64,000 bases of DNA from Runella rosea (GTDB lineage: Bacteria > Bacteroidota > Bacteroidia > Cytophagales > Spirosomataceae), in the NCBI RefSeq assembly GCF_003325355.1, contig NZ_CP030850.1, forward strand, positions 2,976,001-3,040,000. Direction: 5' to 3'. Shown one piece after another: positions 42,512 through 60,461 of the stretch; position 1 is the first letter of the stretch; every line of letters starts with the position of its first letter. The position numbers and the translations under genes were made by a program. The notes below the pieces were generated by a model. That model saw only the letters and a program-made list of their open reading frames with translations, was not told where the DNA came from and ran no database searches.

Positions 42512-42559
42512 CCCTATTTCTTTCAAAAATTCGTATTAATCGTGTCGTTTATGCTGTTT

Positions 42560-42662: not shown

Positions 42663-44672
42663 TTATTTCAATTCAAACGTTTCGGTAATCACCGAAAAGC
42701 CCGTGGGCTTCATCACTTCCAGTGTTACGTTTTTCTCAAATCCGCGCACCGGAACTTTCACTTCCATGCTTTGACCAGGCTGTAAATCAGGAATTACCAT
42801 GGTTTTCTCATTGGTTTTGAGCACGTATTTTTTAATGGCATACGCAGGGAAGTCATTCCGGGCTTTTACCCGAATCACCAATTGATGTTGCCCCTGTCCA
42901 CCTGCTTGATAGCTTACTTTTTCAAGCGTAACGGGCGACATTTCACGACGATGTGCGGCATACAAGGGTCTTTGAGTACGCTCCGGTCCTACCAAGCCCC
43001 ACGGACGATAGCCATTGGGATTTGTTCCTACATGCCGACTTTGATAATCATTATACGACCACCACGAAGCTCCAACGATGTAAGGCCGCTTTCTAATTTC
43101 CGTCATTACACTCTCTAAATGAGCCACTTGACCTGCTTCACCCGTCGCATTGTCGGCGCGGGTTCCCCACTCACTGATCAAAATGGGCTTATCGGGATAC
43201 AGGGCATGAATATGGTCAAAGGCTTTGGCGTGATTTCCGTAGGTATTGGTCGAGACAAAATCGCAGTATTGCGTCGCTTCGTCCTCGGGTTTTGCAGGCA
43301 AGATATTGAGGCGCATAGAAGCAAAGGTGTACAAACGTGTCGGGTCAAGGCTACGTCCATACATCATCATATCTTTGGTCCAACGCTGCCCCGACGGGGT
43401 TTCCGACAAATATTCATTGCCCACGCTGTAAGCGATGACACTCGGGTGATTCCAGTCGCGCTCCATCATTTCCCGAAATTGCTGCTGAAATTTGCGGCGA
43501 ATGGTGTCATTATCCATTTGGGTCGGCGTAAGTTGCCAATTACCAGGCTCAGTAATGATGAGCATTCCGTAGCGGTCGGCCAAATCGTAAAAGGTTTCAC
43601 TCGGGGTATAATGCGTCAAACGGTGAAATTCCATGCCAGCTTCTTTCATCAGTTTGAAATCTTTTTCGACCAACCAATCCGGTTCCAGTGAACCTAAGCC
43701 CGGATAATCAACAACACGGTTTCCTCCCGCCAGTCGTATGGGTTGACCGTTAAGCAACAATTGCGCATTCTGCACTTCCATTTTACGAATGCCGAAATTG
43801 GTCGAAAGCGTATCGCCATTGATGGCCGCCTGAAGTTGGTACAAGGTTGGCTCGTCGAGATTCCATAATTTTACTTCGGACGATTTCAACGAAGTTTCTG
43901 CTTCCAAAACCGCCGTTTGTCCGGCTGCAACAGAGGGCGAAGTTGTTTTCCAAACCAATTTTAACGGTTGATTTTCCAAGGAAACGACGGTCGTCAATTT
44001 GGGCGTAACGACCTGTTTGGACGCATTCCGCACGCGGGCTTTGAGGCGCACATTGGCCGTTCCTTTAGCCAAATCAGGCGTAGCTTCCACTTTCAGATTT
44101 TCCAAATAGACTTCCGATTCTGTGGTCAAATACACGGGACGAATCAGTCCTCCGTAATTGATCCAACCCGGAAACGGGTCATTGGCATTACCGTTGTCTT
44201 TCGCGCCGGGAATGGAGCCCGTTTGCCACGTATCGTTATTAATGGAAATGGCCAAAACGTTATCACCCGATTTCAGGAAGTCGGTGATATCAAAATGGAA
44301 CGGGGTGTAGCCGCCTTCGTGCGTACCTACTTTTTGGTTGTTGAGCCAAACATCCGAGGTGTAATACGCGGCGTCAAAATGCAAAATAACACGTTTTCCC
44401 GCCTGAGGCTGCCACGAAAATGGCTTTCGATACCACACCGTTCCTGTATAAAATTGATAGCGCGGGTCTACCGAAAAGCAATGCGGAACAGTTACTTTAT
44501 CCCAACCGTTTGCATTGTAACTATCTTTAAACCAACCCTTTGCTACACCTACCTCGCGGGTATCCATGGCAAACGACCACTGTCCGTGCAACGGTATGGC
44601 GTCGGGTTGACGAAGGGTGTATTGCCCAAAAGCAGTAATAGAGACAAGAAAGAATAAAGCACTTAATTTCAT
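42663..44672 (-). CDS. Secreted glycoside hydrolase family 2 enzyme
   Basis: 669 residues with a signal peptide (MKLSALFFLVSITAFGQ). The GH2 layout is complete: a sugar-binding beta-sandwich (about 25-180; WDKVTVPHCF, WLNNQKVGTHEGGYTPFHFDIT), an immunoglobulin-like domain (about 185-290), and a TIM barrel with RLTHYTPSETFYDLADRYGMLIITE, the acid/base glutamate near 417 in SVGNEYLSE and the nucleophile near 499 in ILISEWGTRAD. A short C-terminal domain follows. GH2 includes beta-galactosidases, beta-glucuronidases and beta-mannosidases; the sequence does not let me choose. It lies between the symporter and the FAD oxidoreductase in the same orientation. Confidence 0.93.
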   Translation of the reverse strand: MKLSALFFLVSITAFGQYTLRQPDAIPLHGQWSFAMDTREVGVAKGWFKDSYNANGWDKVTVPHCFSVDPRYQFYTGTVWYRKPFSWQPQAGKRVILHFDAAYYTSDVWLNNQKVGTHEGGYTPFHFDITDFLKSGDNVLAISINNDTWQTGSIPGAKDNGNANDPFPGWINYGGLIRPVYLTTESEVYLENLKVEATPDLAKGTANVRLKARVRNASKQVVTPKLTTVVSLENQPLKLVWKTTSPSVAAGQTAVLEAETSLKSSEVKLWNLDEPTLYQLQAAINGDTLSTNFGIRKMEVQNAQLLLNGQPIRLAGGNRVVDYPGLGSLEPDWLVEKDFKLMKEAGMEFHRLTHYTPSETFYDLADRYGMLIITEPGNWQLTPTQMDNDTIRRKFQQQFREMMERDWNHPSVIAYSVGNEYLSETPSGQRWTKDMMMYGRSLDPTRLYTFASMRLNILPAKPEDEATQYCDFVSTNTYGNHAKAFDHIHALYPDKPILISEWGTRADNATGEAGQVAHLESVMTEIRKRPYIVGASWWSYNDYQSRHVGTNPNGYRPWGLVGPERTQRPLYAAHRREMSPVTLEKVSYQAGGQGQHQLVIRVKARNDFPAYAIKKYVLKTNEKTMVIPDLQPGQSMEVKVPVRGFEKNVTLEVMKPTGFSVITETFELK

Positions 44673-44935: not shown

Positions 44936-46645
44936 TCAAACATTCACAGTCGGTTCCCCTTTCGGAAGCTGAATCTTCCGGGCAGCATACCACGGAATGA
45001 GGGCGCCAAAAAGAATCACGACCGCAATTCCTGCTGTTACAATTCCTCCCGATGTGGCAAATGCACTCAATCCCAACAACATGGCCGCCACAAAAACCAG
45101 CGCCCCCGCAATGACCCGCATTCCGAAACGATTTTGGCGTTTGATTTCAATGGCTTCCTCTTCTCCTTCCGCCAATTTGGCGGCTTTGCGCGTGGCTTTG
45201 ATAGCTAAGTATTGTTCATATTCTTCAGAAATCAGGCCTTTGGAACGGGCATATAATTCATACGCAAGCAACAACACCAAAGGTAAGCCAATGCCGATAA
45301 TGGTTTCCAAAGCCCGGCTCAATTTGAAATCCAACAGCCAAGGTGACAGCACTTTAAAGAACAGATTGACCGTTAATCCGATAACAGTTATCCAAAAAGT
45401 GGTTTTTCCATTAATTCTTTTGGAGAACAGCGCCCAGAGCGGCGGTGCTAACAACGGCCCACCTGAAATGGCCGAAATACTCAACACCACCTCCACAATT
45501 CCGCCCGCCGCAGGTACGAGTAAGGCAATGACGATCATCCCCAACCCGAAACCCCAAGACGAGAGGCGAGCTATTTTAATCAATTGTTTATCAGAGGCTT
45601 TTGGATTAATAAATCCTTTGTAAATATCATTGGTAAACACCGCAGAAACCACATTCAGCGTGGTATTCGCACTGGCAGAGGTGGAGAAATACATGCCCGT
45701 GAGCATCAGTCCCAACAAACCCGGCGGCAATACGGCTTTGCAAATCAGCAGATACGCATTTTCGGTATCTAAACCGACTAAACTAGGATTGAGCGCGCGG
45801 TAAATCATGGGCGGCAGCATCCAAATCATGGGGCTGACGAGGTACAGAGCGGCAAAAAGAAAGGCCACTTTCCGAGCTGATTTTGGGCTATCGACGCTGG
45901 TATAACGTTGCACAAAGGTCCAGTTGCCCCCAATGTAGGCAATGTGATACAGCACAAAAGCCATTACAAAACCCAAGGTGTATTCTCCATGCAGTAAGTT
46001 AAAAAAATCGTCAGGAACGGATTGCGTAAATAGCTCAAAACCACCAACTTTATCCAATGAAAGTGGTAACAGAATAAACACTGCCGCCGTCAGAATGACG
46101 AACTGAAGAATATCGGTGACCATCACCGCCCACAGCCCACCCACAGCGGTATAGGCAATCATAAAAAGTCCCAATACAATCGTGGATTCGACCAATGGAA
46201 AACCCAATGAAATGCTAACCAGTTTGGCGACAGGATACAATACCGAGCCTTTGATAAAAACCGACACTAAGGTAAAAATACCAATGTAGGTTTTCTGAAC
46301 GCGTTCGCCGAGACGTTCTCGAATAAATTCTGCCGCCGTCAGGTTGCCCGTAGCCCGCCAACGCGGCGCCAAAAATAGGCCCGTCACAATGGCTCCGAGA
46401 CACATTGTCCACTGAATGGTGACCGCTACCCAACCGTGTTTGTACGCAATAGAGCCCCAGGCCACGAAGGTACCGGCCGAGAAAAAAGACATAAAAAGCG
46501 ACAATCCGCCAATGAACCAGGGCACCGCCTCGCCTCCCGCAAAGAAGGATTTGAGGTTGCGGCCCGTTCGGGCAAACAGCATCCCGATGGCCAGCACAAA
46601 GGCCGAGAAGATGAAGATGACGGCGGTATCAATGGTTGAGTTCAA
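44936..46645 (-). CDS. Sodium:solute symporter family protein
   Basis: Inner-membrane transporter of 569 residues with about 14 predicted helices, using a sodium gradient for uptake, probably of a sugar or sugar acid released by the nearby enzymes. SSS features: early RNLKSFFAGGEAVPWFIGGLSLFMSFFSAGTFV, the central AYTAVGGLWAVMVTDILQFVI (the family motif), GGNWTFVQRYTSVDSPKSARK and GMYFSTSASANTTLNVVSAVFTND with a sodium-site serine/threonine cluster. A charged loop (YLAIKATRKAAKLAEGEEEA) precedes the last helices. The start is a TTG at 46645; I see no in-frame ATG near it. Confidence 0.9.
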   Translation of the reverse strand: MNSTIDTAVIFIFSAFVLAIGMLFARTGRNLKSFFAGGEAVPWFIGGLSLFMSFFSAGTFVAWGSIAYKHGWVAVTIQWTMCLGAIVTGLFLAPRWRATGNLTAAEFIRERLGERVQKTYIGIFTLVSVFIKGSVLYPVAKLVSISLGFPLVESTIVLGLFMIAYTAVGGLWAVMVTDILQFVILTAAVFILLPLSLDKVGGFELFTQSVPDDFFNLLHGEYTLGFVMAFVLYHIAYIGGNWTFVQRYTSVDSPKSARKVAFLFAALYLVSPMIWMLPPMIYRALNPSLVGLDTENAYLLICKAVLPPGLLGLMLTGMYFSTSASANTTLNVVSAVFTNDIYKGFINPKASDKQLIKIARLSSWGFGLGMIVIALLVPAAGGIVEVVLSISAISGGPLLAPPLWALFSKRINGKTTFWITVIGLTVNLFFKVLSPWLLDFKLSRALETIIGIGLPLVLLLAYELYARSKGLISEEYEQYLAIKATRKAAKLAEGEEEAIEIKRQNRFGMRVIAGALVFVAAMLLGLSAFATSGGIVTAGIAVVILFGALIPWYAARKIQLPKGEPTVNV

Positions 46646-47335: not shown

Positions 47336-49843
47336 TCATTTCTCAATCGTCATTACTTCAAAACCAATGGCCGGAAGTTGCTTCTTCATTGACTTCCCTT
47401 TCACAGTCACCTGAAAATCAGTAGCCTGCGCACGATTGTTCAGCAATACAACAAAGAGTTTATCCTTCTTTTCCGATTCCGCCAAAATGTAATCAATCGT
47501 GGGGTTATCCACTATTACTAAGTTCTCACCCACGATAAGATTGGCCTTTTCTCCGTTGATCATCCCGGCGGCAAAACCGTAGCTTTGGTGCGGTCCCACT
47601 TTGGGCGTCACAAATCCGCGCGGAAACTTCACCTGCCCATTAGAACGCAATTCGGCTTCGGCCATCAGGTAGTCGGTAAGCCAACCGATCTGCCACCACG
47701 CATGGTGCGGATACGGCCCGGCTCCGCGATTCATGGCGTTCCAATAGTAAGAAGCTACGCTCGTTTTGGCATCCACAAAGGCATCACGTCCCCACGCCAC
47801 CGAACGCGCCATATCGGCAAAAATGGGTTCTTTCGTCAACTGATGCATCCGAATAAACAGCCCCGCATGACTCGCCAATTGAATGGGGCCATGGGTATTT
47901 GAAGAACCAAAAATTCCTCCGTGTTCAAAACTTAACCCTGCTTGCGAAATCTCCCAATCTTCGCGTTGTGTACCGTTGACTGTTTTGAGGCTTCGGTTTG
48001 GAATGGGATGCGTATAAATGGAAGCGGTATAAACCTTGGCGGCCGTAATGGCAGCGTTTTTGTACTTTGAATCGTTGGTCAAATCATACAAATCCAGCAA
48101 CGCCTGCGCCGACTGCGCCGTGGCAAAATCGGGTGCGTAACGGGCGTCACCGCAGACACCCAGAAAACCGCCCGTTTCCACGGCATTTTTCACAAACCAA
48201 TCGGCTCCTTTTCGGGCGGCAGCCAAGTATTTCGGGTCTTTGAGAATACGATAAGCGACCAGCAAACCGTAAAACGTTGGACGCACGTCCTGAATATCTT
48301 TGAAGGCTTCCTGCTCGGTTTTTCGGTCGTAGGCTACGGCCCAGCTTCCGTTGGCTTTTTGGTTTTTCTGCAACCATTCCGCTCCTGCCTGCAAACGCTC
48401 TTTGAGGGGCTGATTGTTGGGATCAAAGAGCAAAATATTGCCAATGTCCAGCATCGTGTAATAAGTTACCGCAATGGGTTCCACGACCTCACCCCACTCT
48501 TCGGTAAAGCGTTTTGATTTGGCCAAATAATATTGTCCCGCCAGTGCGCCTTTGAAGAAACCCTCGTCGGAAATTTGCTGCGTAAACTTGAAATTCAGCG
48601 CGTAAGGCAATACATTTTTTATCAACAAACTGTCGTTGGTAGCCTTAGCCAGCATCCACATCGCGCCGTAGTCGGAGTTTTTCATGGCGTCTTTGTTGGA
48701 ACCCACCACGCCGCCCAGATACGACTGCGCCCCTATTTTCAATCCTTTGTACTCTTCAATATTCCAAAGCGATGTTTTGGGGTCGGTCAGGTAATGGTGC
48801 ATTTTTTGGATACGGTCGGTCAGCGATTGCTTGCTTTGACGCAGGCTGAGGGCTTCTTTGAGTTGATAAATATTGTACGCGGCGTGGTTGATGGCCTTGA
48901 ACCAATCGCCGTCAATTAAGCTGTAACGAAATGAGTAAGTGACTGTCTCACCCGCTTTCAGCTCGGATTTAGGCTCCCCCAATACGGGATAATACAACGT
49001 GGGCGAAAGTTGTGATTTTCGGTTTTTGTGCGATAAACCGATGTTCCAATTTTGGTGCGTGTTTTGGCCTTTTTCCCACGGGTCGCGGCAGAGCGCGGGG
49101 TCAGGAATAACTGAAATCGTTATACCATTTTTAGTAGAAACCAACGGACTCAACGTGCTCGCTGAACGCTCCCGATACACCGCAGGCAGGGCAGGAACGC
49201 CATGTCCGTAGGCGTAAGCCAACGCAAAATTCGGTTGTATAAAATTCCCCTGAAAATAGCCCGGCACCGACGCCCAAGCCATATCTGTTTCATTGACAGA
49301 GGCAATGGTCGGCGTAGCCAACGAAAAGTAGCCTGCGGCTTTAGAAGTCAGGGTTTGTTTAACAATAATATCGGTTGGGAATTTCGGATCAAAACTCCAT
49401 TCGGTCGTTAGGTTGGCAGCTTCCGTTTCGTGCTCGAAGGTTAAGTTATTACCTGACGTTTGTTTTGCTTTTTTCGCAAAAAAATGAAAGGCTTTTCCAG
49501 CAGTATTCAACGAAACGGGACTGATGCTTTCAGCCCACCATTTGGTTTGATAGTGGTATTTAGGGCCAGGAAATTCTTCGCCCGTAATGCTTTTAACGAT
49601 CTGTTCGGGTTTGTCCGAGGGCTTCTCGGCGGCATAAAGCAAAGTATTTTCACCCGACGGCGTTTTTAGGTTCGTCCACGTTTGACCCTTTTTGACCGAC
49701 AGGGTCTTGAGTTGCCAACCTTGGGTGCTGTTTTCCCACCGCATTTTCACGGAAGAACTTTCCAACACCAAAGGCTTAGATGATTGACTGAAGGTATCAA
49801 TCCAAAAACCAAAAAAGAAAATGTATACAAACTTAAATTTCAT
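47336..49843 (-). CDS. Secreted six-hairpin glycosidase-like protein
   Basis: 835 residues with a signal peptide (MKFKFVYIFFFGFWIDTFSQ). The first about 330 residues are beta-rich (repeated strands, such as NLTTEWSFDPKFPTDIIVKQTLTS). Residues about 340-740 have paired helices recurring in an (alpha/alpha)6 toroid: RLQAGAEWLQKNQKANGSWAVAYD, YLAAARKGADWFVKNAVETGGFLG, QSAQALLDLYDLTNDSKYKNAAI, and PYPHHAWWQIGWLTDYLMAEAELRS. A small beta domain closes the protein. I cannot place it in a numbered family. The ATG at 49843 is chosen because it starts the signal peptide. It probably acts on an oligosaccharide outside the cytoplasm, by context. Confidence 0.75.
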   Translation of the reverse strand: MKFKFVYIFFFGFWIDTFSQSSKPLVLESSSVKMRWENSTQGWQLKTLSVKKGQTWTNLKTPSGENTLLYAAEKPSDKPEQIVKSITGEEFPGPKYHYQTKWWAESISPVSLNTAGKAFHFFAKKAKQTSGNNLTFEHETEAANLTTEWSFDPKFPTDIIVKQTLTSKAAGYFSLATPTIASVNETDMAWASVPGYFQGNFIQPNFALAYAYGHGVPALPAVYRERSASTLSPLVSTKNGITISVIPDPALCRDPWEKGQNTHQNWNIGLSHKNRKSQLSPTLYYPVLGEPKSELKAGETVTYSFRYSLIDGDWFKAINHAAYNIYQLKEALSLRQSKQSLTDRIQKMHHYLTDPKTSLWNIEEYKGLKIGAQSYLGGVVGSNKDAMKNSDYGAMWMLAKATNDSLLIKNVLPYALNFKFTQQISDEGFFKGALAGQYYLAKSKRFTEEWGEVVEPIAVTYYTMLDIGNILLFDPNNQPLKERLQAGAEWLQKNQKANGSWAVAYDRKTEQEAFKDIQDVRPTFYGLLVAYRILKDPKYLAAARKGADWFVKNAVETGGFLGVCGDARYAPDFATAQSAQALLDLYDLTNDSKYKNAAITAAKVYTASIYTHPIPNRSLKTVNGTQREDWEISQAGLSFEHGGIFGSSNTHGPIQLASHAGLFIRMHQLTKEPIFADMARSVAWGRDAFVDAKTSVASYYWNAMNRGAGPYPHHAWWQIGWLTDYLMAEAELRSNGQVKFPRGFVTPKVGPHQSYGFAAGMINGEKANLIVGENLVIVDNPTIDYILAESEKKDKLFVVLLNNRAQATDFQVTVKGKSMKKQLPAIGFEVMTIEK

Positions 49844-49894
49844 CTCTACAAATGTTTTGGCCTCCGCGCGGCGGACCGTTCCGGGGCTCATATA

Positions 49895-51802
49895 TTATCT
49901 TACAATTACTTCAGCTTTTTTAGTAAACCCCATCGTTCCATACGATACTTGCAGCGAACGGGAGGCCGCAGGAATAGTATAAGATGCCCGAAAAATTCCC
50001 GTATTTTCTCCAGTTTCAATCACTTCAATAGCACTGACTGATTTACTGTTAATTGACAATAAAACCTGTCCTTTCTCGGCCAGATTCCAGTCCATATTCA
50101 GGGCTGCTTTCAGTTCGAGGATAACAGTTTCTCCCGCTTTGGCTTGCTTGAGTTCTTTTCCATCCCGATTCAAAATTTTCACGTATTGACTGCCGAGTGT
50201 GGAAAAAGTCAGCGTGGCCTGCCAACCTCGGTTAGACACGCACCAACCTTCCGTGGCGTAGGCATCTTTTCCGATCAAATCCTGACTTTCATTTCCGCCA
50301 GTTGTTGCCGTTTTTGTTTTCTGAAAATCTTTGTCCAACGGCGAACCGTCGAGTGTGCCGCGCACTTTGCCCAACATTCCGTAACCGTTGGGATGCGCGG
50401 CAGGCCAACCGTGTTCAACACCTTCCCAATAGCCGCCGATGTCGAGGCGCTCTTTGCTTTTGTTACTCAAATGCGCTCCTACGGGATTGACTCCAAACAC
50501 AAAATCAACCTGCGCCCACCCCAAATCGCGCAATCGAGTGTCGTTTAATAGATGCGCCACGGCAAACATCGAACCACCCAACGCAGGCGCCCCGCCTAGT
50601 TCTTTGGTTTTGGGATGCGCCCATTCCGTTTCGCTGTGGACGCGGTATTTCCAAAAATTATTGGTCTTTTGGTGCATGTGCGTGGCCCAGGCACTCAATT
50701 TTTCTTTGGTTCCTTTGGGTGCGTGTTCGGGCGCAATCAACAAAAAATACGCCAATGCCTGCGGGGTAATGTGCTCGGCGTTCCGAATCCACCACATATG
50801 CCGGGGATTATTAAAATCCCAATTTTGTATAATATCAGTGGCGCTTTCCTGGGCCCATTTCAGGTATTGTTGGGGTTTACCGCTGGGTTCGTTCTTTTCG
50901 CACAAATACATGAACAAATTGCTGAACACCGACTGACCGTAAGCATTGCCCATTTCGTTAAATTCCTGAAAACCAGCATCTACCCATTTGTTGCTGTATG
51001 TCCAGTAGCGCACTACTTTATGACGGTCGTAGGCCATCCATTTTTCATTGCACACCTGACGGTATTTCAGGTATTTTTCGCGGGGTAAATAAGGTTTTAG
51101 GAAATCATGATAGGCCGCACATACCACCGAAAGTTGGTCTAATAAATTCCAATAATCGTACTGCATCCGTGGTTGTCCTTCGTAGCCCAATGAGCCGTGG
51201 CGAGTGCCCACGGGGCCTTGATAGGCAACGTGCGCGTAGGCAAATTCGGCATGCCAGAGAATAAGTTCTATCAAATCAGGCACATTTTTATCGCCAAAAT
51301 CGGTTTTCCAGCGGTCATACAGGGCAGGATTGGAGGCGTATTGCAGACATTCAAAAATGGTTTCCAAACCATACGCACCGCCATCCCGCGAAGGGCCGCC
51401 GCCGTAGACTTTGGGTAAATTGGCATTGATGGGGTCTTCGGAGCCTCGTACATCAATAAAGAATTGATAACCCAGCTTTGACGCTATCTTTTCCAGTAAA
51501 TGGTCGGCGATCCAAAACGGAACGGAAGTCCCGACACCCTCCACTTCTACCCGAAACTCATCTTTGGAAACGGGATTGAAGCGCGTAAACCAACCTTCCT
51601 GATTCAGTATTTCACCTTCAAATACGGCTTGATTAGTTGCAGTATTGATAATCTTAAATTTTGCCCCGTCTTTTGCCCCCACGCACACAAAGCGTTTGGA
51701 TTCGCCCAGATTATAGCCGGCCTGATTGACCAACACCGACACTTTTTCCTGTTGAGCGAATGACGTTATACAGCAAGTGAGTAAAATAAAAAATACGCGC
51801 AT
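49895..51802 (-). CDS. Secreted GH9-like protein (Ig-like N-terminus plus six-hairpin domain)
   Basis: 635 residues with a signal peptide (MRVFFILLTCCITSFAQ). The N-terminal domain (VSVLVNQAGYNLGESKRFVCVG) is the CelD_N-type Ig-like domain that precedes GH9 catalytic domains. The helical domain ends with WAQVDFVFGVNPVGAHLSN, which resembles the late GH9 motif LLGxNP. The GH9 catalytic DAGD motif is not evident: the nearest match, KWVDAGFQEF, lacks the second aspartate. A further beta domain (about 545-635) closes it. It is either a divergent hydrolase or a binding protein. The start at the ATG 51802 begins the signal peptide. Confidence 0.75.
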   Translation of the reverse strand: MRVFFILLTCCITSFAQQEKVSVLVNQAGYNLGESKRFVCVGAKDGAKFKIINTATNQAVFEGEILNQEGWFTRFNPVSKDEFRVEVEGVGTSVPFWIADHLLEKIASKLGYQFFIDVRGSEDPINANLPKVYGGGPSRDGGAYGLETIFECLQYASNPALYDRWKTDFGDKNVPDLIELILWHAEFAYAHVAYQGPVGTRHGSLGYEGQPRMQYDYWNLLDQLSVVCAAYHDFLKPYLPREKYLKYRQVCNEKWMAYDRHKVVRYWTYSNKWVDAGFQEFNEMGNAYGQSVFSNLFMYLCEKNEPSGKPQQYLKWAQESATDIIQNWDFNNPRHMWWIRNAEHITPQALAYFLLIAPEHAPKGTKEKLSAWATHMHQKTNNFWKYRVHSETEWAHPKTKELGGAPALGGSMFAVAHLLNDTRLRDLGWAQVDFVFGVNPVGAHLSNKSKERLDIGGYWEGVEHGWPAAHPNGYGMLGKVRGTLDGSPLDKDFQKTKTATTGGNESQDLIGKDAYATEGWCVSNRGWQATLTFSTLGSQYVKILNRDGKELKQAKAGETVILELKAALNMDWNLAEKGQVLLSINSKSVSAIEVIETGENTGIFRASYTIPAASRSLQVSYGTMGFTKKAEVIVR

Positions 51803-51843
51803 TGAGCTATTGTTTAGTGCGACCGGACCCACCGGCTGATTTC

Positions 51844-52833
51844 TTACAAATTCTTTATACCAGCCGTTGAGAATGTTTTCAACTGGCCGGCATCATCCGT
51901 ATAAAGGATATACACGTCCATATCTCTTCGGGTAACCATAAACTGTTTGACCGCTTCCAATCCCATGACAAAAAAAGCGGTATCGTAACCATCCGCGGTA
52001 ATGGCATCTTCTGCCAAAACAGTGACGCTGAGGATGGAACTCTGCTCCATTTCGCCCGTTTTTGGGTTGATAATGTGACTAAATACCTGACCGTTGACCT
52101 CGTACCGATTTCGGTAATTGCCTGCCGTGGTCATGGCTCGATTGTGCAGCTTGATTGTTGTTTGCAACCTGGCTGGATGCAGTGGGTTTTCGATGCCTAT
52201 GGTCCACGCTTGCCCGTCATTTTTCTGTCCTTTTGTCCGAACTTCTCCGCCAATTTCCACCATGTAGTTTTTGATTCCCTGCTTCTCCAAAACGCCCGCT
52301 ACTACATCTACACTGTAGCCCTGCGCAATGGAATTGAGGTCTAACCGAATGTTTGCCTTTTGTTTAACAACCGATATCGAATCAAAGGTTATATGCTGAA
52401 AACCAACGTACTGCAACAATGAATCCACATTCACAAACGTCCCTTTCGGCCGTTTTGCTGGCCCAAATCCATAGGCTTCCACCAACGGCAACACGGTTGG
52501 GTCAAACGCCCCTTTTGTATCTCGAAATACCTCTGCCGACTTTTTCAGCACAGTATAAAAGTGCGGCGACATGAACCGATGACTCATCGACCGATTAAAC
52601 TGTGAAATCTCGGAGTCGGGTCGATAGATTGACAGAGATTGGTCAATCTCTGCCAGCAAAGAATCAATTTGTTGTTGAAACGAACGCTTTTGCTCGTCAC
52701 GATATTTAATACGATACGTTGTTCCCTGCGCCTCTCCTGTCAGGCTCACCATTGACTCTCCCAAAGATACACTCCCCTGCCCCTGCCCAAAAGCAGGAAT
52801 GAAGGCAAGTAGAAGGAGGAACATCAGTTTCAT
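51844..52833 (-). CDS. apbE: FAD:protein FMN transferase
   Basis: 329 residues with a signal peptide (MKLMFLLLLAFIPAFGQG). It attaches FMN to a threonine of exported target proteins using FAD and magnesium. ApbE motifs are complete: MVSLTGEAQGTTYRIKY, DQSLSIYRPDSEISQFNR, GAFDPTVLPLVEAYGFGP, LDLNSIAQGYSVD, YMVEIGGEVRTKG, RAMTTAGNYRNRY, HIINPKTGE and AITADGYDTAFFVMG, with the metal-binding aspartate and threonine near the end. The ATG at 52833 is preferred over a TTG two codons upstream. It sits next to an exported FAD oxidoreductase and a protein with a possible flavinylation motif. Confidence 0.95.
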   Translation of the reverse strand: MKLMFLLLLAFIPAFGQGQGSVSLGESMVSLTGEAQGTTYRIKYRDEQKRSFQQQIDSLLAEIDQSLSIYRPDSEISQFNRSMSHRFMSPHFYTVLKKSAEVFRDTKGAFDPTVLPLVEAYGFGPAKRPKGTFVNVDSLLQYVGFQHITFDSISVVKQKANIRLDLNSIAQGYSVDVVAGVLEKQGIKNYMVEIGGEVRTKGQKNDGQAWTIGIENPLHPARLQTTIKLHNRAMTTAGNYRNRYEVNGQVFSHIINPKTGEMEQSSILSVTVLAEDAITADGYDTAFFVMGLEAVKQFMVTRRDMDVYILYTDDAGQLKTFSTAGIKNL

Positions 52834-52880
52834 GGGCAATGGTTAAAATTTAACGTTGAGCAAAGCAGTTTCTCTGCGTT

Positions 52881-54683
52881 TTAAGGTTTGCCGGGTGGTG
52901 TTTCGTCTTTAATGATTGCCATCAATTCGGGCAAGTATTCCTGATACACGCCGCGCGGAGAAGTGTTGTATTTTTTGGTCAGGTAAGCGGCAAAGCCCAC
53001 CACTTCTCCCATCATGCCGCAGGTGCGCATCACCCGCGTACTCCCAAAAGCAACGTGCGTGGTGCTGATGTTACGCCCGGCCATGAAGAGGTTGCTGATG
53101 TTTTTGGAGTACAGACAACGGTACGGAATGGTATAAGGAGCCACTTTGATATGCTTTGTGCCCGCAAAAAACTCCTGTCCTTCAAAATACTTTTTGTTGC
53201 GCTCGTCTGGAAAATGCAGGTCGATGGTCCAAGTCGCGGTTACGGTGCCGTCTGGATATTGTTTGCCTTCCTGAATGTCCATCTGGGTCAGCACGTGGTC
53301 GCCCATCAACCGGCGCGATTCACGCTTGCCGCCGATGTAAGCCACCCATGCCAGTTCGCGCTTGGCGTATTTGGCCGCTTTGTTCTTTTTCAAATAGGAC
53401 CAGTTGCCGTAAATGGCCCGTAGGTTGTGGTCGCGTATTTTTTCGGCGTCGGTAATGGTGTTAAAATTACCGAAACCCGTTTCCCATTGCCAGTCGGCTT
53501 TGGAGTCATCGATGTGGTATTCGTCGGAAAACTGTATCGCCCAAGGGGTTTCAGGAAACGAGGACACGGTATCACGCTCCAGCGAGGCCCAGAGGTTAGA
53601 GGTTCCTAAAGTAAAATTATCGGCTTTGTCGGCGGCCAACGATTCGCCGGTTTCGGCTTTGCTTTCGCGGCCCATTCTGAATTCCGCCCCTGCCAACTCG
53701 CCGATGGTGCCGTCGCCGGTGCAGTCAGAGAAAAACGTTCCCGTAAAGCGCGTTTCTTTATTGGTAGCAATGTCGCGACCAACAACCGCTACAATTTTAT
53801 CCCCGTTTTTTTCCACTTTGTACACGTGCGTATTCAAAAACAGCGAGATATTTCGTTCTCCTTTCACAATGGCCGTTTTTCGGGCGTCGCCGTATTCTTT
53901 GGCGTCCGGGTTTCCGTTGCCGGGGTCACCGTTATCCATTTCACGTACAATTCGGCCGAGTTTTGGGTAATGATTTTTGTCGACATCGCCCATCAAATGC
54001 ACTCGTATTTCGGAGCTGTTGTTTCCTCCCAATACTGGACGGTCCTGAATCAAAGCTACTTTTAAGCCCATGCGAGAAGCTGAGATGGCTGCGCAGGTTC
54101 CAGCAATACCACCGCCTATGACCACCAAATCAAAGTTATTGGCTTGGGTGGGCGCATCGGTCAGTTTCAGTTGCTGCTTACGAAAAGCCGTCATCGCGTC
54201 GAGTTTATCGGGCGGGATAAACGTAGGAGAATTTGTAAACAGAATCGCATCGCAGCGGCCATTGAAACCGGTCAAATCGTGCAATGCCACGCTCATTTGT
54301 TCGTTTTGGACCTCAATTTCACCGCCCGGATACCATTTCCACACGTCGGAGCCGCTTTCGCCGAACACTTGGTTGAGGGGTTTACCGTTCAGAACGACCT
54401 GAAATTTGCCCGGACCTTTCGGAAACGGTGCCCAATCTTTGGTGCGTACCCAAACTCGATATTTCCCTTTTTTGGGAAAGAGAATGGTCGTGGTGGCATC
54501 TTTTACCGGACGGCCCATACCATGCGCCATAAGGTACGACGAGCCCATGACCACAAACGATTGCTGGTCGATGACCCAGCCGCCTTTATCGGTGAAGGAT
54601 TCCGTTTCCAGAAAAACATGATCCTGTGCCGATAGCTTCAGCGATATAAACAGTAAGAGGAGCGTTCGGAATAGCGGTTGCAT
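52881..54683 (-). CDS. Secreted FAD-dependent oxidoreductase with N-terminal carbohydrate-binding-like domain
   Basis: 600 residues. Signal peptide (MQPLFRTLLLLFISLKLSAQ); residues about 22-150 form a beta-sandwich like carbohydrate-binding modules (ETESFTDKGGWVIDQQSF, GKYRVWVRTKDW, GKFQVVLNGKPL). Then comes the FAD domain: DLVVIGGGIAGTCAAISASRMG, DRPVLGGNNSSEIRVHLMGD, SDCTGDGTIGELAGAEFRMGRES, GGKRESRRLMGDHVLTQMD, and NLFMAGRNISTTHVAFGSTRVM. It is paralogous to the cytoplasmic enzyme at 40142. It starts one base after the stop of the upstream putative FMN carrier, so the two are translationally coupled. Its substrate is unknown; electrons could pass to the flavinylated partner. Confidence 0.88.
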   Translation of the reverse strand: MQPLFRTLLLLFISLKLSAQDHVFLETESFTDKGGWVIDQQSFVVMGSSYLMAHGMGRPVKDATTTILFPKKGKYRVWVRTKDWAPFPKGPGKFQVVLNGKPLNQVFGESGSDVWKWYPGGEIEVQNEQMSVALHDLTGFNGRCDAILFTNSPTFIPPDKLDAMTAFRKQQLKLTDAPTQANNFDLVVIGGGIAGTCAAISASRMGLKVALIQDRPVLGGNNSSEIRVHLMGDVDKNHYPKLGRIVREMDNGDPGNGNPDAKEYGDARKTAIVKGERNISLFLNTHVYKVEKNGDKIVAVVGRDIATNKETRFTGTFFSDCTGDGTIGELAGAEFRMGRESKAETGESLAADKADNFTLGTSNLWASLERDTVSSFPETPWAIQFSDEYHIDDSKADWQWETGFGNFNTITDAEKIRDHNLRAIYGNWSYLKKNKAAKYAKRELAWVAYIGGKRESRRLMGDHVLTQMDIQEGKQYPDGTVTATWTIDLHFPDERNKKYFEGQEFFAGTKHIKVAPYTIPYRCLYSKNISNLFMAGRNISTTHVAFGSTRVMRTCGMMGEVVGFAAYLTKKYNTSPRGVYQEYLPELMAIIKDETPPGKP

Positions 54684-54684
54684 A

Positions 54685-55845
54685 TTACTTATTGTTTGGG
54701 TGGAGTGTTTGTTTAAATTTTACTATTTTCTTTTGTACAGTTTGATTTTTGGGCTGGCGCGCTTCCAACACCCGATAAATTTCAGCAGCAAAGTTTTCAT
54801 TGGCTAGCTGATCGGCCAGAGTCAGCAGCGTTTGTTCCGACAGTTTTGGTTGAGTTGCCAATGCTTTCAGTAAAAGACTTCCTTGTTCCTGATTTGATTT
54901 GCCAATTTGTTGGGCCACCTGTTCTGCCATTGTATTGGTGAGCGGCAGCGTCGCCATCTTTTTCAGAATAACGAGCTGCAACGGATACCCTGCCGATTGG
55001 TAAGTTTCCCATAACCATTGCTGCCGGGCGTTGTCGGCAAAGAATGCCACATTGATTTTTTGCAGGGCAAAACGAGCGGTAAAGATGTTTCTTCCTCGAA
55101 TGACCTGCTGCATATCCGACTGAAAATCAAGGGCAACAATACCCTCCGTATTCATTACCCGTTCCATTGCCCAATACTGATAATGGTGATTGTTGTCAGT
55201 CAGGAATCGGTGCAAAAGAGCCTCGTTTTTAAAGGTTTCGGTTATCCGCTGCATCTCCGTCACTACCTTTCCGTGGGCGATGTGCCAGAGCGTATAGCAG
55301 GTGTATACTGCTCCGTCGATCACTTCATTTTTGACGGTTTTGAGCGTGGCCCCCGCCTTGGCATCGACAGAATCGGCCAAGTTTTCGGTGCCTTTCCCGA
55401 CCAGATCTTCCATCGAAACATCTTTCAAGAGCGAGTGAGTATTGGCCAGAATATCCTGTAATTTTTCGTAATCTTCAGGTTTAAACGGCTTGTGATCCAT
55501 GCGGGTCAACACGGCCCCTTTCGGAAAATCAAAACGGGTATAATTGCCCAACAAATCCCAGTAAAAGTTAATGTACACGGGTTTGCACTCTCCTGTCAAA
55601 CACACCGGTGTAAACAGGTTACTAAAATAATACAGCGGCTGCCCGCCCTCATCAAATGCCAGTTGCAGTGTGTATTCGGTGGTATCGTTGATGGTTACCG
55701 TGTATTCTTTCTTCTTCATTGGGGCCTGAGCAAAAACGGTGGTTGCTACCAATAGAAAAACACATAGAATACCGGCATTCCAGCAAGCTTTCTTCAAAAG
55801 CGCGCTGAACAAGAAGAGAAATTGTATGTGTTTAGGTTTCTGCAC
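54685..55845 (-). CDS. Exported protein with a possible FMN-attachment motif
   Basis: About 386 residues, family not recognised. A hydrophobic export signal (NAGILCVFLLVATTVFAQ) is followed by a beta-rich part with two cysteines (FTPVCLTGECKPVY). Near residue 161 (169 in the longest reading) is D-A-K-A-G-A-T-L-K-T, close to the Dxx[ST]GAT motif whose threonine ApbE flavinylates in NqrC/RnfG proteins; the residue before GAT is alanine, not Ser/Thr. The C-terminal half is helical and may form HEAT-like repeats (ATLPLTNTMAEQVAQQIGKS, EQTLLTLADQLANENFAAEI). I chose the GTG at 55845; a TTG at 55869 overlaps the palindromic element. It is coupled to the FAD oxidoreductase downstream, with apbE next. 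That it carries FMN is inference. Confidence 0.6.
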   Translation of the reverse strand: MQKPKHIQFLFLFSALLKKACWNAGILCVFLLVATTVFAQAPMKKKEYTVTINDTTEYTLQLAFDEGGQPLYYFSNLFTPVCLTGECKPVYINFYWDLLGNYTRFDFPKGAVLTRMDHKPFKPEDYEKLQDILANTHSLLKDVSMEDLVGKGTENLADSVDAKAGATLKTVKNEVIDGAVYTCYTLWHIAHGKVVTEMQRITETFKNEALLHRFLTDNNHHYQYWAMERVMNTEGIVALDFQSDMQQVIRGRNIFTARFALQKINVAFFADNARQQWLWETYQSAGYPLQLVILKKMATLPLTNTMAEQVAQQIGKSNQEQGSLLLKALATQPKLSEQTLLTLADQLANENFAAEIYRVLEARQPKNQTVQKKIVKFKQTLHPNNK

Positions 55846-55867
55846 GATTGCTTCCAAGCGGTTTGCC

Positions 55868-55914
55868 AACGTCGGCGAGGGCTGGGCGCCCCCGTTTAAA
55901 ACCTCGCCGACGTT
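55868..55914. repeat. 47-bp palindromic element between genes (copy B)
   Basis: The same 13-bp arms as copy A at 40994-41041 and a similar centre; the two differ by three substitutions and a single-base length change. It lies between the SusD and FMN-carrier genes, where it could act as an mRNA hairpin within the operon. Confidence 0.9.
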
Positions 55915-55929
55915 TTTCGACGATGTATT

Positions 55930-57417
55930 TTACTTCCAAGCAGGATTTTGTTCCAATTTAGGATTGGCGTTGATTTCGTCCAGCGGAATTGGAAAATACT
56001 TGTTCTTAGCCGTCGGTGTACGCACTGGATAGACGTTGTTGACGGCTTTAGGGATCACACTCATAAATTTGTCGGTTCGGGTCAAATCATACCAGCGATC
56101 GCCTTCGGCAAAAAACTCCCACGAACGTTCCTGCAACACCGCATCAATGAAGGCATCTTTGCTCAGGCCCGCTTTCAAATCAGGGAGACCTGCCCGTTTA
56201 CGAATCACATTTACAAATCCATACGCGGTGGCAGTGGCACCGTTCAGACGGGCTTCGGCTTCGGCCGCGATCAGGTACATATCCGGCAAGCGAAAAATGG
56301 GGATATTGGGAATCTGACCCACGATCGTATTAGGGTCTTGGTATTTTTTAATCAACACCCCCTGCGTGGTAACGGGCGTTATGCTTCGTTGAGGCACGGT
56401 TTTGCCGCTTCTGTCCACAAAAGTTGTGTCCAATAACTGACGTCTTTTATCCGCTGGATCAAAAGAATTAAAGAAGGTTTGGTAGGCAAACATCGACCCA
56501 AACGACGTCCGGGCATAGTCGGCACCAGCGTTGCCAGGAGGGCCGCAAAGGCCGGTCAATTGGTGCGTACGACCAGGCGAAATGGGAGCGACTTCAAAAG
56601 CCCACATGTTTTCGACCCGAGCCGCATCTTCTTTATCATAACGATACACATCGCGCACATCAGGCATAAGCGAATATTTACCCGAATTGATGACTTCCTG
56701 CGCTTTTTGCAGGGCTTTTTGCCAATCTTCATTGTACAAAGCCGCTTTGGCGTAGAGTGCATTCACTACTTCTTTGGAAGGCCGCCCTTTTTCAACAGCG
56801 GGGTATGAAAGCAAACCTGCCGCCGACGCCATATCCAAATCGCTATAAATTTGCTTATAAACATCCGCTTTGAGGCTTTTTCCAATCGTGGCTTCTACTT
56901 CTGAAGTACTTGGTTTTGTTTTAACAGGCACATCCCCAAAGTTTTTGGTGAGCGTCCAGTGATAAAACGCCCGCATAAAATACGCTTCTCCGATGATTTG
57001 CTTTTTGCGCGTTTCATCCATGATGGCAGCGGGTACTTTTTCAATAATCCAGTTCGCTTTTTCGATACCATCGTAGCTCGAAGCCCAGATTTGTTGGGGT
57101 GATTCGTTGGTGCGACCTGCCGTACGCTGCGTAGTATAATTGGCGTCGTATGCAAACAAGGTCAACGTATTGCGTCCCACCACCGCGCGCGGATAACACT
57201 GATCGGCGCTGAAATCCGACACGATCGTTAAAGCAGGACCGACCCCCATGTCACCAATGGGATCATAGACCGCCACAAGACCTTTTTCAGCATCTGCCGC
57301 CGTTTTATAAAAAGCCTCGGTATAAATAGACGAGTAAATGGTTTCTTCCAAATCACAACTTGTCGTGAGCACCAACAGGGCTGAGCACAAGCCAATGAGT
57401 TTATTATATCTTTTCAT
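55930..57417 (-). CDS. SusD/RagB family lipoprotein
   Basis: 495 residues, lipobox LVLTTSCDLE with the cysteine at 21. Typical SusD regions: NWIIEKVPA, IIGEAYFMRAFYHWTLTKNFGDVPVKT, FRLPDMYLIAAEAEARLNG, LQERSWEFFAEGDRWYDLTRTD and the ending LDEINANPKLEQNPAWK. It binds glycans at the cell surface and caps the SusC encoded 26 bases upstream. With the fucosidase and fucose permease before it, a fucose-containing oligosaccharide is the likely ligand by context. Confidence 0.95.
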   Translation of the reverse strand: MKRYNKLIGLCSALLVLTTSCDLEETIYSSIYTEAFYKTAADAEKGLVAVYDPIGDMGVGPALTIVSDFSADQCYPRAVVGRNTLTLFAYDANYTTQRTAGRTNESPQQIWASSYDGIEKANWIIEKVPAAIMDETRKKQIIGEAYFMRAFYHWTLTKNFGDVPVKTKPSTSEVEATIGKSLKADVYKQIYSDLDMASAAGLLSYPAVEKGRPSKEVVNALYAKAALYNEDWQKALQKAQEVINSGKYSLMPDVRDVYRYDKEDAARVENMWAFEVAPISPGRTHQLTGLCGPPGNAGADYARTSFGSMFAYQTFFNSFDPADKRRQLLDTTFVDRSGKTVPQRSITPVTTQGVLIKKYQDPNTIVGQIPNIPIFRLPDMYLIAAEAEARLNGATATAYGFVNVIRKRAGLPDLKAGLSKDAFIDAVLQERSWEFFAEGDRWYDLTRTDKFMSVIPKAVNNVYPVRTPTAKNKYFPIPLDEINANPKLEQNPAWK

Positions 57418-57443: not shown

Positions 57444-60400
57444 TTAAAACGTTAACTGAATACCGCCCAAGAAGGACCGCGCCTGTGGATACACAAAGTT
57501 GTCTACCCCAATGACCGTATTTGAACCCGCAAAGGTGTTTACCTCAGGGTCGAATCCGCTGTAGTTGGTGACCGTAAACAGGTTGTTTCCTGAAACATAC
57601 ACGCGGATATTTTGCACGCCTTTGATGGCTGGAAGGGTATAGCCGAGGGTAATGTTTTTACAACGAACGTACGAGCCGTCTTCTACGTAATAGTTACTCA
57701 CCGGCAAGCGTCCACCCTGCGCCGCACTTACGTACTGGTTGCTTGGGTTGGTCGGTGTCCAACGGTTTACTACACCTTTCAACAAATTGCGTTGTCCCAG
57801 CGGATTTTCAAACGAAAGACGGCTCAGGTTGTAGATATCATTTCCTTGGGAACCCGAAAGGAAAGCACTCAAGTCGAAGCCTTTGTAAGAAACATTGGTC
57901 GAAAAGCCGAAGATAAAATTAGGATTCGGGTTGCCAGTAATGGTTTGGTCGGCCGACGTAATGGTTCCGTCCCCATTCAGGTCTTTGATTTTATGTCCCC
58001 CCAAACGACCATCATAACCTGGCAAAATGGTTTCTCCCGTTTGGTTGATTCCGTCAAAAATGTACGATTTAATCAAGCCCAAAGGCTCACCCACTTTTAG
58101 AATCGTATAGCTTGTAATGAAACGTTCCTGCGTAGTTCCTCCGTCCAAATCAAGCACTTTGTTGCGATTGCGGGTCAAATTAGCCGAAACAGTCCATTTC
58201 AACGGGCCGTCTAAAATACGTGCATTGGCCGCAAACTCGATTCCTTTATTTTCCAATGAGGCGTAGTTTCCAGTAATGCTGCCATAACCCGACGAAAGCG
58301 GTAATGTTTTGATATACAATAAGTCTTTAGTTATTTTATCATATACATCTACAATCAGACTAAAGCGATTATTGAGCAAACTCACGTCCAGACCAATATT
58401 GGTTTGGGTTGATTTTTCCCAACGCAAATCAGGGTTGGCAATGCCCGTAGGATTGATACCCGTTACGTAGGCATTATTGAAAACATAATCACTACCCGTA
58501 GCGGCTACTGTACTCAGGGACTGATACGGTGAAATACCACCCGCATTTCCCGTAATCCCGTAGCTTGCCCGCAATTTAAGGTCAGACAACCACGAAATAT
58601 TTTTCAAAAACGGCTCTTCGATCAAGCGCCATGCGGCTGAAACCGCAGGAAAAAAGCCGTATTTATTGTTAGCTCCAAAGCGGCTCGAACCGTCGACGCG
58701 CGCGGTCAAGTCCAAAAAATATTTGTCTTTGTAGCCGTAATTGACACGTCCCATGTACGAGTCCAAACGCTGTTTACTGCGACTGCTACTGACGGTGCGG
58801 TTAAGGGCCAATTGCACCGCTTCGTTTTGAGTAGCGTCGTTCGGGAAACCCGACGCGCTGATGGAGTTTGCATTGGAAAACTCTGCCTGTGAGGCAAATA
58901 CGCCCGTAAACTTCAGGCTATGCGTCTCAGCAATGGTTTGAGCATAGGTCAAAATACTTTCGTGCAATAAGCCCAAAAAGTTGGAATTTGATTTGGAACC
59001 CGAACCCGAATTGTCGTTCAAATCTCTGACACTGATGATAGAGCGCGGTGAATAACGGTCGGCAATATTGTTCTGTAGATCAGCGTTGAACGACGCACGG
59101 TAGGTCAGGCCTTTCAGAATAGTGGCTTCGCCATACAGATTTACCAAGGTACGCTTCAAGGCTGTTTGGTTGAGTACCGAAGCAATTCCCAACGGATTGG
59201 TTACCTCGCGGTACCGTCCGTCTTCCTGCTCACCAAAAGGAAACACGCTTCCATCAGCACGATAAGGTTGTAAATTCGGTGGTGCGCCGATAGCCGCGCC
59301 CAAAATACTGCCCGTCACGACATCAGCATCTCCCTGACTCGTTGAACCCGTTTGTACGCCAGAATTGACCGAATAGCTTCCCAAAATACTGGTTCCCACT
59401 TTTACGCGATTACTGATTTTGTGGTCCAGATTTAGACGATAAGAATAGCGTTTAAAGTTGGAATTGATAATGATACCATCTTGATTAAAATAGTTGGCCG
59501 ACATTGCCAATTGCGTTTTGTCGTTACCACCATTGATTGACAGTTGGTGGTTTTGAATCGGTGCCTGACGGAAAATAATGTTTTGCCAGTTGACACCTTC
59601 ACCCAACGACGCCGGGTCTTTGTAATAGCTGTTTTTAAACACTTCGTTTTCCAATTGCGCAAATTCGGCGGCGTTGAGCGTCGGCAGGGTTTTAGATACT
59701 TTTTGAGTTCCATAATAACTGTCAAACGTCACTCGCGTTCCGCCGCTGCGACCTCGTTTGGTCGTAATCAGCACTACACCATTGGCGGCCCTTGCCCCGT
59801 AAATAGCTGAAGCAGAGGCATCTTTCAATACTTCCACGCTTTCAATATCGTTGGGATTGATGGTCGAAAGCGGACTAACGTCGTTAATTCCGCCGCCATT
59901 GGAAATCTGAATTCCGTCTACGACATATAAAGGTTCTGATGCACCGTTGATGGAGTTCGTTCCCCGAATCCTGACGCTTACGTTTCCACCCGGGGCACCT
60001 GAGTTTTGGTTGATTTGAATCCCTGAAACCCTCGCCTGCAAGCCCTGCGCCACGTTGGCTACGGGCGTTTGCACCAAATCAGATGCTTTCACCGAGGCAA
60101 TCGACCCCGTTGTCTCAATTTTTCGCTGCGTACCATAACCTACCACCACGACCTCATTAAGTGCCTTGACATCGGCTTGGAGCGACACATCAATAACACT
60201 GCGGTTATTAACATCAATTTCTTGTTTTAAATACCCAATAAACGAGAAGACCAAGGTGGCTTTTGACGGCACACCGTTGAGTTGGTAGTTGCCATCACCA
60301 TCTGAAACCGCCCCCTTCTGTGTGCCTTTTACTGTGACATTAACGCCCGGTAGAGAGGCTCCAGCACCATCGGCGACTTTACCCCTTATGTTCAGATCTT

Positions 60401-60461
60401 GGGCATACGCATTGGTCATAAAACCAAACGCCAGTAGCCATATTCGTAATTTTCCCAGCAT
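57444..60461 (-). CDS. SusC/RagA TonB-linked outer membrane transporter
   Basis: 1,005 residues. Signal peptide (KLRIWLLAFGFMTNAYAQ), carboxypeptidase-regulatory-like domain (DLNIRGKVADGAGASLPGVNVTVKG, about 22-105), plug (VVVVGYGTQRKIETTGSIASV; IESVEVLKDASASAIYGARAANG) and the barrel ending ARSFLGGIQLTF. No STN domain. It heads the block susC-susD-FMN carrier-FAD oxidoreductase-apbE-GH9-like-six-hairpin, all minus strand. The fucosidase terminator at 60783 lies upstream, so it has its own promoter in the 60462-60780 gap. Confidence 0.96.
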   Translation of the reverse strand: MLGKLRIWLLAFGFMTNAYAQDLNIRGKVADGAGASLPGVNVTVKGTQKGAVSDGDGNYQLNGVPSKATLVFSFIGYLKQEIDVNNRSVIDVSLQADVKALNEVVVVGYGTQRKIETTGSIASVKASDLVQTPVANVAQGLQARVSGIQINQNSGAPGGNVSVRIRGTNSINGASEPLYVVDGIQISNGGGINDVSPLSTINPNDIESVEVLKDASASAIYGARAANGVVLITTKRGRSGGTRVTFDSYYGTQKVSKTLPTLNAAEFAQLENEVFKNSYYKDPASLGEGVNWQNIIFRQAPIQNHQLSINGGNDKTQLAMSANYFNQDGIIINSNFKRYSYRLNLDHKISNRVKVGTSILGSYSVNSGVQTGSTSQGDADVVTGSILGAAIGAPPNLQPYRADGSVFPFGEQEDGRYREVTNPLGIASVLNQTALKRTLVNLYGEATILKGLTYRASFNADLQNNIADRYSPRSIISVRDLNDNSGSGSKSNSNFLGLLHESILTYAQTIAETHSLKFTGVFASQAEFSNANSISASGFPNDATQNEAVQLALNRTVSSSRSKQRLDSYMGRVNYGYKDKYFLDLTARVDGSSRFGANNKYGFFPAVSAAWRLIEEPFLKNISWLSDLKLRASYGITGNAGGISPYQSLSTVAATGSDYVFNNAYVTGINPTGIANPDLRWEKSTQTNIGLDVSLLNNRFSLIVDVYDKITKDLLYIKTLPLSSGYGSITGNYASLENKGIEFAANARILDGPLKWTVSANLTRNRNKVLDLDGGTTQERFITSYTILKVGEPLGLIKSYIFDGINQTGETILPGYDGRLGGHKIKDLNGDGTITSADQTITGNPNPNFIFGFSTNVSYKGFDLSAFLSGSQGNDIYNLSRLSFENPLGQRNLLKGVVNRWTPTNPSNQYVSAAQGGRLPVSNYYVEDGSYVRCKNITLGYTLPAIKGVQNIRVYVSGNNLFTVTNYSGFDPEVNTFAGSNTVIGVDNFVYPQARSFLGGIQLTF

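Follow-up and report, generated by a model that had tools for sequence, protein, structure and literature searches.

We describe a three-gene cassette on the minus strand of a 64,000-nucleotide window from the 7.16-Mb genome of Runella rosea (NZ_CP030850.1, positions 2,976,001 to 3,040,000; coordinates below are those of the window). The cassette encodes a candidate carrier of flavin mononucleotide (FMN), here named FMNc (54685..55869), an exported flavin adenine dinucleotide (FAD) oxidoreductase, FADox (52881..54683), and an ApbE-type FMN transferase (51844..52839). Motif conservation and gene linkage indicate that FMNc is very probably an ApbE substrate. The best explanation of the whole, to which we give moderate credence, is that exported, ApbE-loaded FMNc takes up electrons from an FADox that oxidises a glycan-derived substrate. 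A preliminary description had proposed such a cassette in a fucose/glycan locus, with electrons passing from the FAD enzyme to a covalently bound FMN. The three genes are where it placed them, with 1 bp between the FMNc stop codon and the FADox ATG. Its interpretation is upheld, as far as sequences can tell, for a probable ApbE substrate linked to FADox in SusC/SusD glycan loci, while its fucose part fails across relatives.

FMNc is an exported protein of 394 amino acids whose start codon is uncertain (TTG at 55869 or GTG at 55845). Open reading frame (ORF) starts were set by script to the first ATG, GTG or TTG, and N-termini and gap lengths are therefore unsure; the probable start of the transferase is ATG 52833. 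Read by eye, the N-termini of FMNc, FADox and ApbE all carry a hydrophobic signal-like stretch. The Pfam scan of FMNc returned nothing at E ≤ 0.1 and the NCBIfam scan a best match of only E 0.13, in agreement with the earlier characterisation of an exported protein of no known family. FMNc is a member of a Bacteroidota family that joins a beta/alpha N-terminal domain bearing an ApbE-type motif to a C-terminal HEAT-like domain. In the AlphaFold2 model (mean predicted local distance difference test score, pLDDT, 86.7), residues 50-212 (55234..55722) form the N-terminal domain, which contains the motif and the helices following it, and residues 213-394 (54688..55233) form a HEAT/armadillo-like helical repeat domain, a probable docking surface. 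We found 85 FMNc ORFs, of which 67 were aligned with the window protein (alignment A1, 68 rows), the rest being judged duplicate genomes by matching positions and identities. The homologues include nine named genera, Runella species being the closest named relatives at this locus, and plasmid records gave two weak matches, from Flammeovirga (annotated as a hypothetical protein) and Persicobacter (unannotated).

Gene neighbourhoods were compared in 53 orthologous loci and in 32 further loci with 34 FMNc genes, the latter hand-picked from longer lists of lower-identity matches (most with 20-36% identity to the window protein) and therefore not a random sample. One further locus (L122) repeats the L065 locus, one of its two FMNc genes being an orthologue; it is counted among the 32 loci and 34 genes, and because its genome duplicates that of L065, both its rows are excluded from the 100-row FMNc alignment on which residue conservation was assessed.

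The ApbE-type motif of the window protein, D-A-K-A-G-A-T (55345..55365), ends in the predicted FMN-bearing Thr175 (codon 55347-55345). Asp169 is kept in 99 of the 100 aligned rows, and the acceptor position, whose threonine the preliminary description expected to be conserved, is Thr in 99 rows and Ser in one. Its assignment of the motif to the Dxx[ST]GAT type holds for the aspartate and the acceptor but not for position 172, where the published motif, D-x-x-[ST]-G-A-[ST] (PMC12052999), has Ser or Thr and the window has Ala. This position is Ala in 42 rows, Thr in 32 and Ser in 26; the strict motif occurs in 47 rows, 42 rows, the window included, deviate by Ala172 alone, and 11 deviate otherwise. 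Other branches of the family read DAVTGATSKT, DGYSGAT or DAVSGAT, and to judge from the alignment the window branch has lost the motif Ser/Thr. According to PMC12052999, flavinylation is lost when the acceptor Thr is replaced with Ala, is little affected by Ala in place of Asp, and falls to about half when Gly becomes Ala or Ala becomes Val. Thr175 is predicted, with high probability, to carry covalent FMN. Two further residues, Cys90 and Cys95 (55585..55602), are invariant in all 100 rows and are candidates for a disulfide or a redox role. In FMNc paralogues from other genomes of the window's genus (L136:6894-8054, L146:7176-8369, L147:7016-8167, L148:6897-8048 and L149:6807-7958), S-P-T or S-P-S replaces G-A-T; these paralogues still adjoin a shorter FADox homologue (453-471 amino acids) and SusC/SusD, and are natural test cases that do without the usual flavin site.

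The transferase matches the Pfam ApbE model (PF02424) above its cut-off and over its full length (1.9e-80, 270.7 bits, positions 2-265 of 266). In 35 of the 53 orthologous loci, an ApbE gene follows FADox as the third gene of the set. In a phylogenetic tree, these 35 proteins and that of the window form one group (support 100/99), apart from five NQR-linked ApbEs and from the other ApbEs of the window genome; a second tree includes 17 of the 36. All seven Larkinella genomes that lack ApbE as third gene have a member of the same clade directly after a second FMNc gene, whose motif reads D-A-V-S-S-A-T. For the remaining 11 loci without a cassette ApbE, all 20 ApbE genes listed in their genomes fall outside the cassette clade, and no FMNc gene was found in the 20 stretches around them. 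Every placed member of the clade adjoins an FMNc-family gene. The presence of Ala172 follows the presence of this dedicated ApbE. All 31 loci whose orthologue has Ala172 have it (24 as third gene, seven beside the second FMNc). The 11 loci that lack it have Thr172 without exception, and another 11, with Thr or Ser172, do have it (Fisher p 9e-6, uncorrected for shared descent). Our reading is that the dedicated ApbE may tolerate, or require, the altered motif.

The window genome encodes four ApbE genes: one fused to DUF2271, one just before DUF3570, one at 919,896 and that of the cassette. A search of this genome for FMN_bind (PF04205) gave no match, and because the cassette ApbE has no other recognised substrate there, FMNc is its obvious substrate. 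The gene at 919,896 (L117:7459-8781) is an apparent orphan with no recognised substrate nearby. The preliminary description had counted homologues in genomes devoid of apbE as a point against its reading; all 42 genomes checked (42 of the 53 loci) have ApbE together with FMNc, but apbE is so common in the family (198 of 200 genomes) that this co-occurrence is uninformative and was dropped as evidence. In Cyclobacterium and its kin (L173, L174, L176-L178, L180, L182 and L183), an ApbE clade (100/99) is constantly found between an ORF of 244-257 amino acids and a divergent ORF of 344-347 amino acids.

FADox is the next gene after FMNc in 53 of 53 orthologous loci, with a median gap of 1 bp. In the further loci, a profile-detected FADox homologue lies directly beside 32 of the 34 FMNc genes and within three genes of all 34, and the 13 partners scanned all belong to PF12831 (13/13). 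The order is mostly flipped relative to the orthologous loci, the FADox homologue lying upstream of 27 of the 34 FMNc genes and solely downstream of five. Adjacency that is kept while gene order is lost argues that the two proteins form a physical or functional pair, and electron exchange between them is probable. The constant neighbourhood that had been expected of all three genes is thus found for FADox and only in part for ApbE. Pairs are also multiplied: in the Dyadobacter loci L049 and L065 one ApbE is flanked by two FMNc-FADox pairs, and in L131 two pairs stand in tandem. A parallel operon (L119-L121) has the order SusC-SusD-FMNc-FADox-851-amino-acid protein-sodium:solute symporter (SSF)-glycoside hydrolase family 2 (GH2); its motif is the canonical DATTGAT, its FAD enzyme is divergent and it lacks ApbE.

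FADox (600 amino acids) matches the Pfam family FAD_oxidored (PF12831) above its cut-off and over the full length of the profile (1.8e-76, 258.5 bits, residues 185-580, profile positions 1-408 of 416); the window genome has five full-length genes of this family, two of them in this locus. In the structural model (mean pLDDT 74.2, with some weak stretches), about 180 N-terminal residues are mostly strands and form a domain that is possibly CBM35-like (54234..54626, limits approximate). The carbohydrate-binding-like domain that the preliminary description saw there is likely in view of this model and of a GH26-CBM35 structure that Foldseek matched to the full-length model (3zm8, E 4.3e-8); the match has a root-mean-square deviation of 22.5, and its placement on the strand-rich domain is our inference. 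The fold matches of FADox are broad, spanning FAD/Rossmann proteins of many kinds. By E-value the Foldseek matches are led by FrdA, urocanate reductase and MnmG. In a Z-score fold comparison, the scores of a Fix/Etf flavoprotein, geranylgeranyl reductase, flavocytochrome c3 and lipoamide dehydrogenase differ by no more than about one Z unit.

The cassette lies in a glycan-utilisation setting. The minus-strand order is FucP-type permease, GH29, SusC, SusD, FMNc, FADox, ApbE, CelD_N-domain protein, 851-amino-acid protein, SSF symporter, GH2 and a second FAD_oxidored protein, with intergenic gaps of at most 60 bp throughout the stretch from SusC to the 851-amino-acid protein. The window has the components of a polysaccharide utilisation locus, namely SusC-type plug and CarbopepD domains, SusD, GH2 and GH29. 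Directly upstream of FMNc is a SusD-like lipoprotein (55930..57417), preceded by a SusC-like TonB-dependent transporter (57444..60461; Plug 1e-21, CarbopepD_reg_2 5.7e-20). Downstream of ApbE are the CelD_N-domain protein, a possible glycoside hydrolase (49895..51832, 3.9e-7) present in some orthologous loci only, and an exported 851-amino-acid protein of no family (47336..49891). The latter is 64-81% identical to 12 aligned homologues; its matches, to GH88, GH76 and LanC-like proteins of the (alpha/alpha)-barrel type, are weak, and none was adopted as its identity. Family matches identify the SSF symporter (44936..46645) and a GH2 glycosidase, beta-glucuronidase/galactosidase-like (42663..44672). 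The second FAD_oxidored protein (40142..42526, 794 amino acids, 4.5e-91) is probably cytoplasmic because it has no evident signal peptide; a homologue also occurs within the Cyclobacterium cassette operon, which suggests a cytoplasmic partner step.

Counted with score cuts and within 8 kb on each side, SusD is directly upstream of FMNc in 37 of the 53 orthologous loci and SusC/SusD are at most four genes away in 50; the 851-amino-acid protein is found in 36, SSF in 35, GH2 in 16 and CelD_N in 12. A SusC/SusD match lies somewhere in 23 of the 32 further loci. Twenty proteins scanned at these loci (16 neighbours and four partners) include sulfatases as well as GH43, rhamnosidase, apiosidase-like and FecR proteins. 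The fucose assignment of the preliminary description is local to the window. There FucP exceeds its NCBIfam cut-off and the GH29 match is sound, but the two together pass the score cut in only one of the 53 orthologous loci (L049 has a weaker GH29 match), and fucose was rejected as the general substrate.

Several known systems resemble the cassette in part. FMN_bind proteins (PF04205: NqrC, RnfG and the FMN part of some fumarate-reductase-like enzymes) are exported like FMNc and share its ApbE-type motif, after which the FMNc model places a helix; some of them serve FAD enzymes, as is proposed for FMNc. FMNc differs in staying below the Pfam threshold, in a similarity that is short and at the motif, in its fused HEAT-like domain and in the invariant C90 and C95. 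The window protein gave no match at the FMN_bind gathering cut-off (22 bits), and neither A1 nor the alignment A3 (35 members) yielded an FMN_bind match above it among the best 25 of 39 and best 25 of 36 families, respectively, the best being 16.2 bits at the motif. In the A3 scan, FMN_bind and HEAT_2 each match three of 35 members below their cut-offs. Compared with the NqrC alignment, the A1 N-terminal domain reached a probability of 0.75%, lower than the 0.88% of a control (C-terminal domain against ApbE). The more varied A3 N-terminal domain reached 18.9% (E 0.0012 over 13 columns), against 0.06-0.22% for five controls. Against PDB sequences, the A3 profile gave a weak motif match to the FMN4 domain 8p2b (E 0.86, rank 11), and unrelated chains matched better on the repeat part (best E 0.029). 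Fold searches with the whole FMNc model found no FMN_bind structure among the 50 best matches of each, which were filled by repeat proteins, and are no evidence against a shared fold. Membership of FMNc in FMN_bind is unsupported by sequence. All 18 NqrC proteins extracted (L097-L114) read SGGT (DAISGGTITS and similar) rather than SGAT.

DUF2271 and DUF3570 are, like the proposed FMNc, ApbE substrates outside FMN_bind; DUF2271 has a conserved [ST]GA[ST], and both are described in PMC8238504 as going with PepSY-like and DsbD systems, whereas FMNc sits with FAD_oxidored and SusC/SusD. Neither Pfam model matches FMNc. The cassette ApbE is like known ApbE proteins in its full-length match to PF02424 and differs from them in forming a separate clade and in facing Ala at the motif Ser/Thr position in 31 of 53 loci. 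Glucoside 3-dehydrogenase and other periplasmic FAD sugar dehydrogenases oxidise sugars outside the cytoplasm and pass the electrons to a separate carrier; they belong to another FAD family and use cytochrome c, in place of the PF12831 enzyme and predicted covalent FMN found here.

We propose the following scheme. Outside the cytoplasm, the dedicated ApbE would transfer FMN from FAD to Thr175 of FMNc, a strongly suggested step. FMNc would then dock, probably through its HEAT-like repeats, onto the co-encoded exported FADox, which the strand-rich domain perhaps holds on the glycan. FADox would oxidise a hydroxyl of the glycan or oligosaccharide handled by SusC/SusD, its FAD handing the electrons to the FMN of FMNc, from which they would reach an acceptor whose gene lies elsewhere. 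There is a precedent for ApbE-made FMN that feeds FAD enzymes, namely some of the fumarate-reductase-like type (PMC8238504). More speculatively, the 851-amino-acid protein, GH2 and the SSF symporter could split the oxidised sugar or import it, after which the conversion might be completed by the second FAD_oxidored protein in the cytoplasm. Carbohydrate oxidation is only slightly favoured over reduction.

A number of observations weigh against this scheme. The window motif has Ala where the published one has Ser or Thr, part of the motif loop is poorly modelled (residues 165-171, pLDDT <50), and the profile similarity between FMNc and FMN_bind is, at the level of sequence, a likeness at the motif only. 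Five of the 11 rows that deviate beyond Ala172 are S-P-[TS]; flavin modification may have been lost in them, which counts against flavinylation of every family member. ApbE is present in only three of the 32 further loci (L122, L129 and L145), and that of L145 falls inside the cassette clade in the first tree and outside it in the second. It is conceivable but improbable that FMNc is not flavinylated at all, its motif being a structural loop that resembles an ApbE site and the protein a chaperone or docking subunit of FADox. The S-P-[TS] and S-S-A-T variants, the unproven homology to FMN_bind and the HEAT-like repeats, which suggest docking, agree with such a role; the near-invariance of Asp and Thr over 100 rows, the placement of one ApbE clade beside the FMNc family and the cassette ApbE's want of another recognised substrate in the window genome speak for flavinylation.

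The direction of electron flow is a separate question. The fold of FADox does not single out a carrier-fed enzyme because many FAD enzymes match about equally, none of the window genes scanned was recognised as a membrane electron-transfer gene, and we know of no substrate for the PF12831 partner. Electrons might also run the opposite way, since the FAD/FMN pairs known from fumarate-reductase-type enzymes work as reductases. FMNc would then be a donor that conveys electrons from the membrane quinone pool to FADox. The latter would act as fumarate and urocanate reductases act on their substrates, its own being an unsaturated sugar, a keto sugar or a phenolic group released from the glycan. FMN is described as the electron feed of such reductases (Meheust et al., PMC8238504), and the leading fold matches of FADox include FrdA, urocanate reductase and flavocytochrome c3, though in the Z-score comparison they are tied with many other FAD enzymes. 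The carrier is found in sugar-uptake loci with hydrolases and no recognised respiratory gene. The genera listed for FMNc homologues are mostly aerobes. Neither point is decisive, and we consider the reverse direction unlikely. FMNc might also be flavinylated within a cassette for flavin or iron handling, or for the disposal of reducing power, that is placed in glycan loci by co-regulation only. In PMC8238504, ApbE clusters are frequently linked with iron assimilation; nine of the 32 further loci have no SusC/SusD match, and some scanned neighbours there (CstA, a solute-binding protein, a carboxypeptidase) are not glycan-related. This reading is a poor prospect, given that 50 of 53 orthologous loci have SusC/SusD no more than four genes away and that several of the further pairs lie near a gene for a sulfatase, a GH43 enzyme or a rhamnosidase. 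Oxidation of a glycan-derived substrate by FADox, with FMNc taking up the electrons, remains our preferred explanation.

ApbE substrates outside FMN_bind are already known, namely DUF2271 and DUF3570 (Meheust et al. 2021, PMC8238504) and Flavodoxin_4 and FMN_red (PMC11334425), and apbE is reported from genomes without an FMN_bind protein (PMC8238504). The main text of the 2021 survey (PMC8238504) uses none of the terms Bacteroidetes, SusC and carbohydrate. In open-licence PMC we found no literature joining ApbE with SusD and, among the matches listed, no fitting title on flavinylation or ApbE with polysaccharide utilization loci or Bacteroidetes. If the proposed scheme is true, FMNc would be another type of ApbE substrate beyond FMN_bind, DUF2271 and DUF3570. 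To our knowledge, no earlier ApbE substrate has been tied to polysaccharide uptake loci. The PF12831 oxidoreductases of glycan loci would gain an electron partner and hence an assay route, and the natural pairing of the Ala motif with the dedicated ApbE could be used to learn how ApbE chooses its targets. More tentatively, HEAT-repeat flavin carriers, each with its own exported FADox, could give many Bacteroidota glycan loci an oxidative extracytoplasmic electron-transfer arm, with the dedicated ApbE of one lineage having co-evolved with D-A-K-A-G-A-T. Some bacteria would then add an electron-transfer step to the breakdown of polysaccharides.

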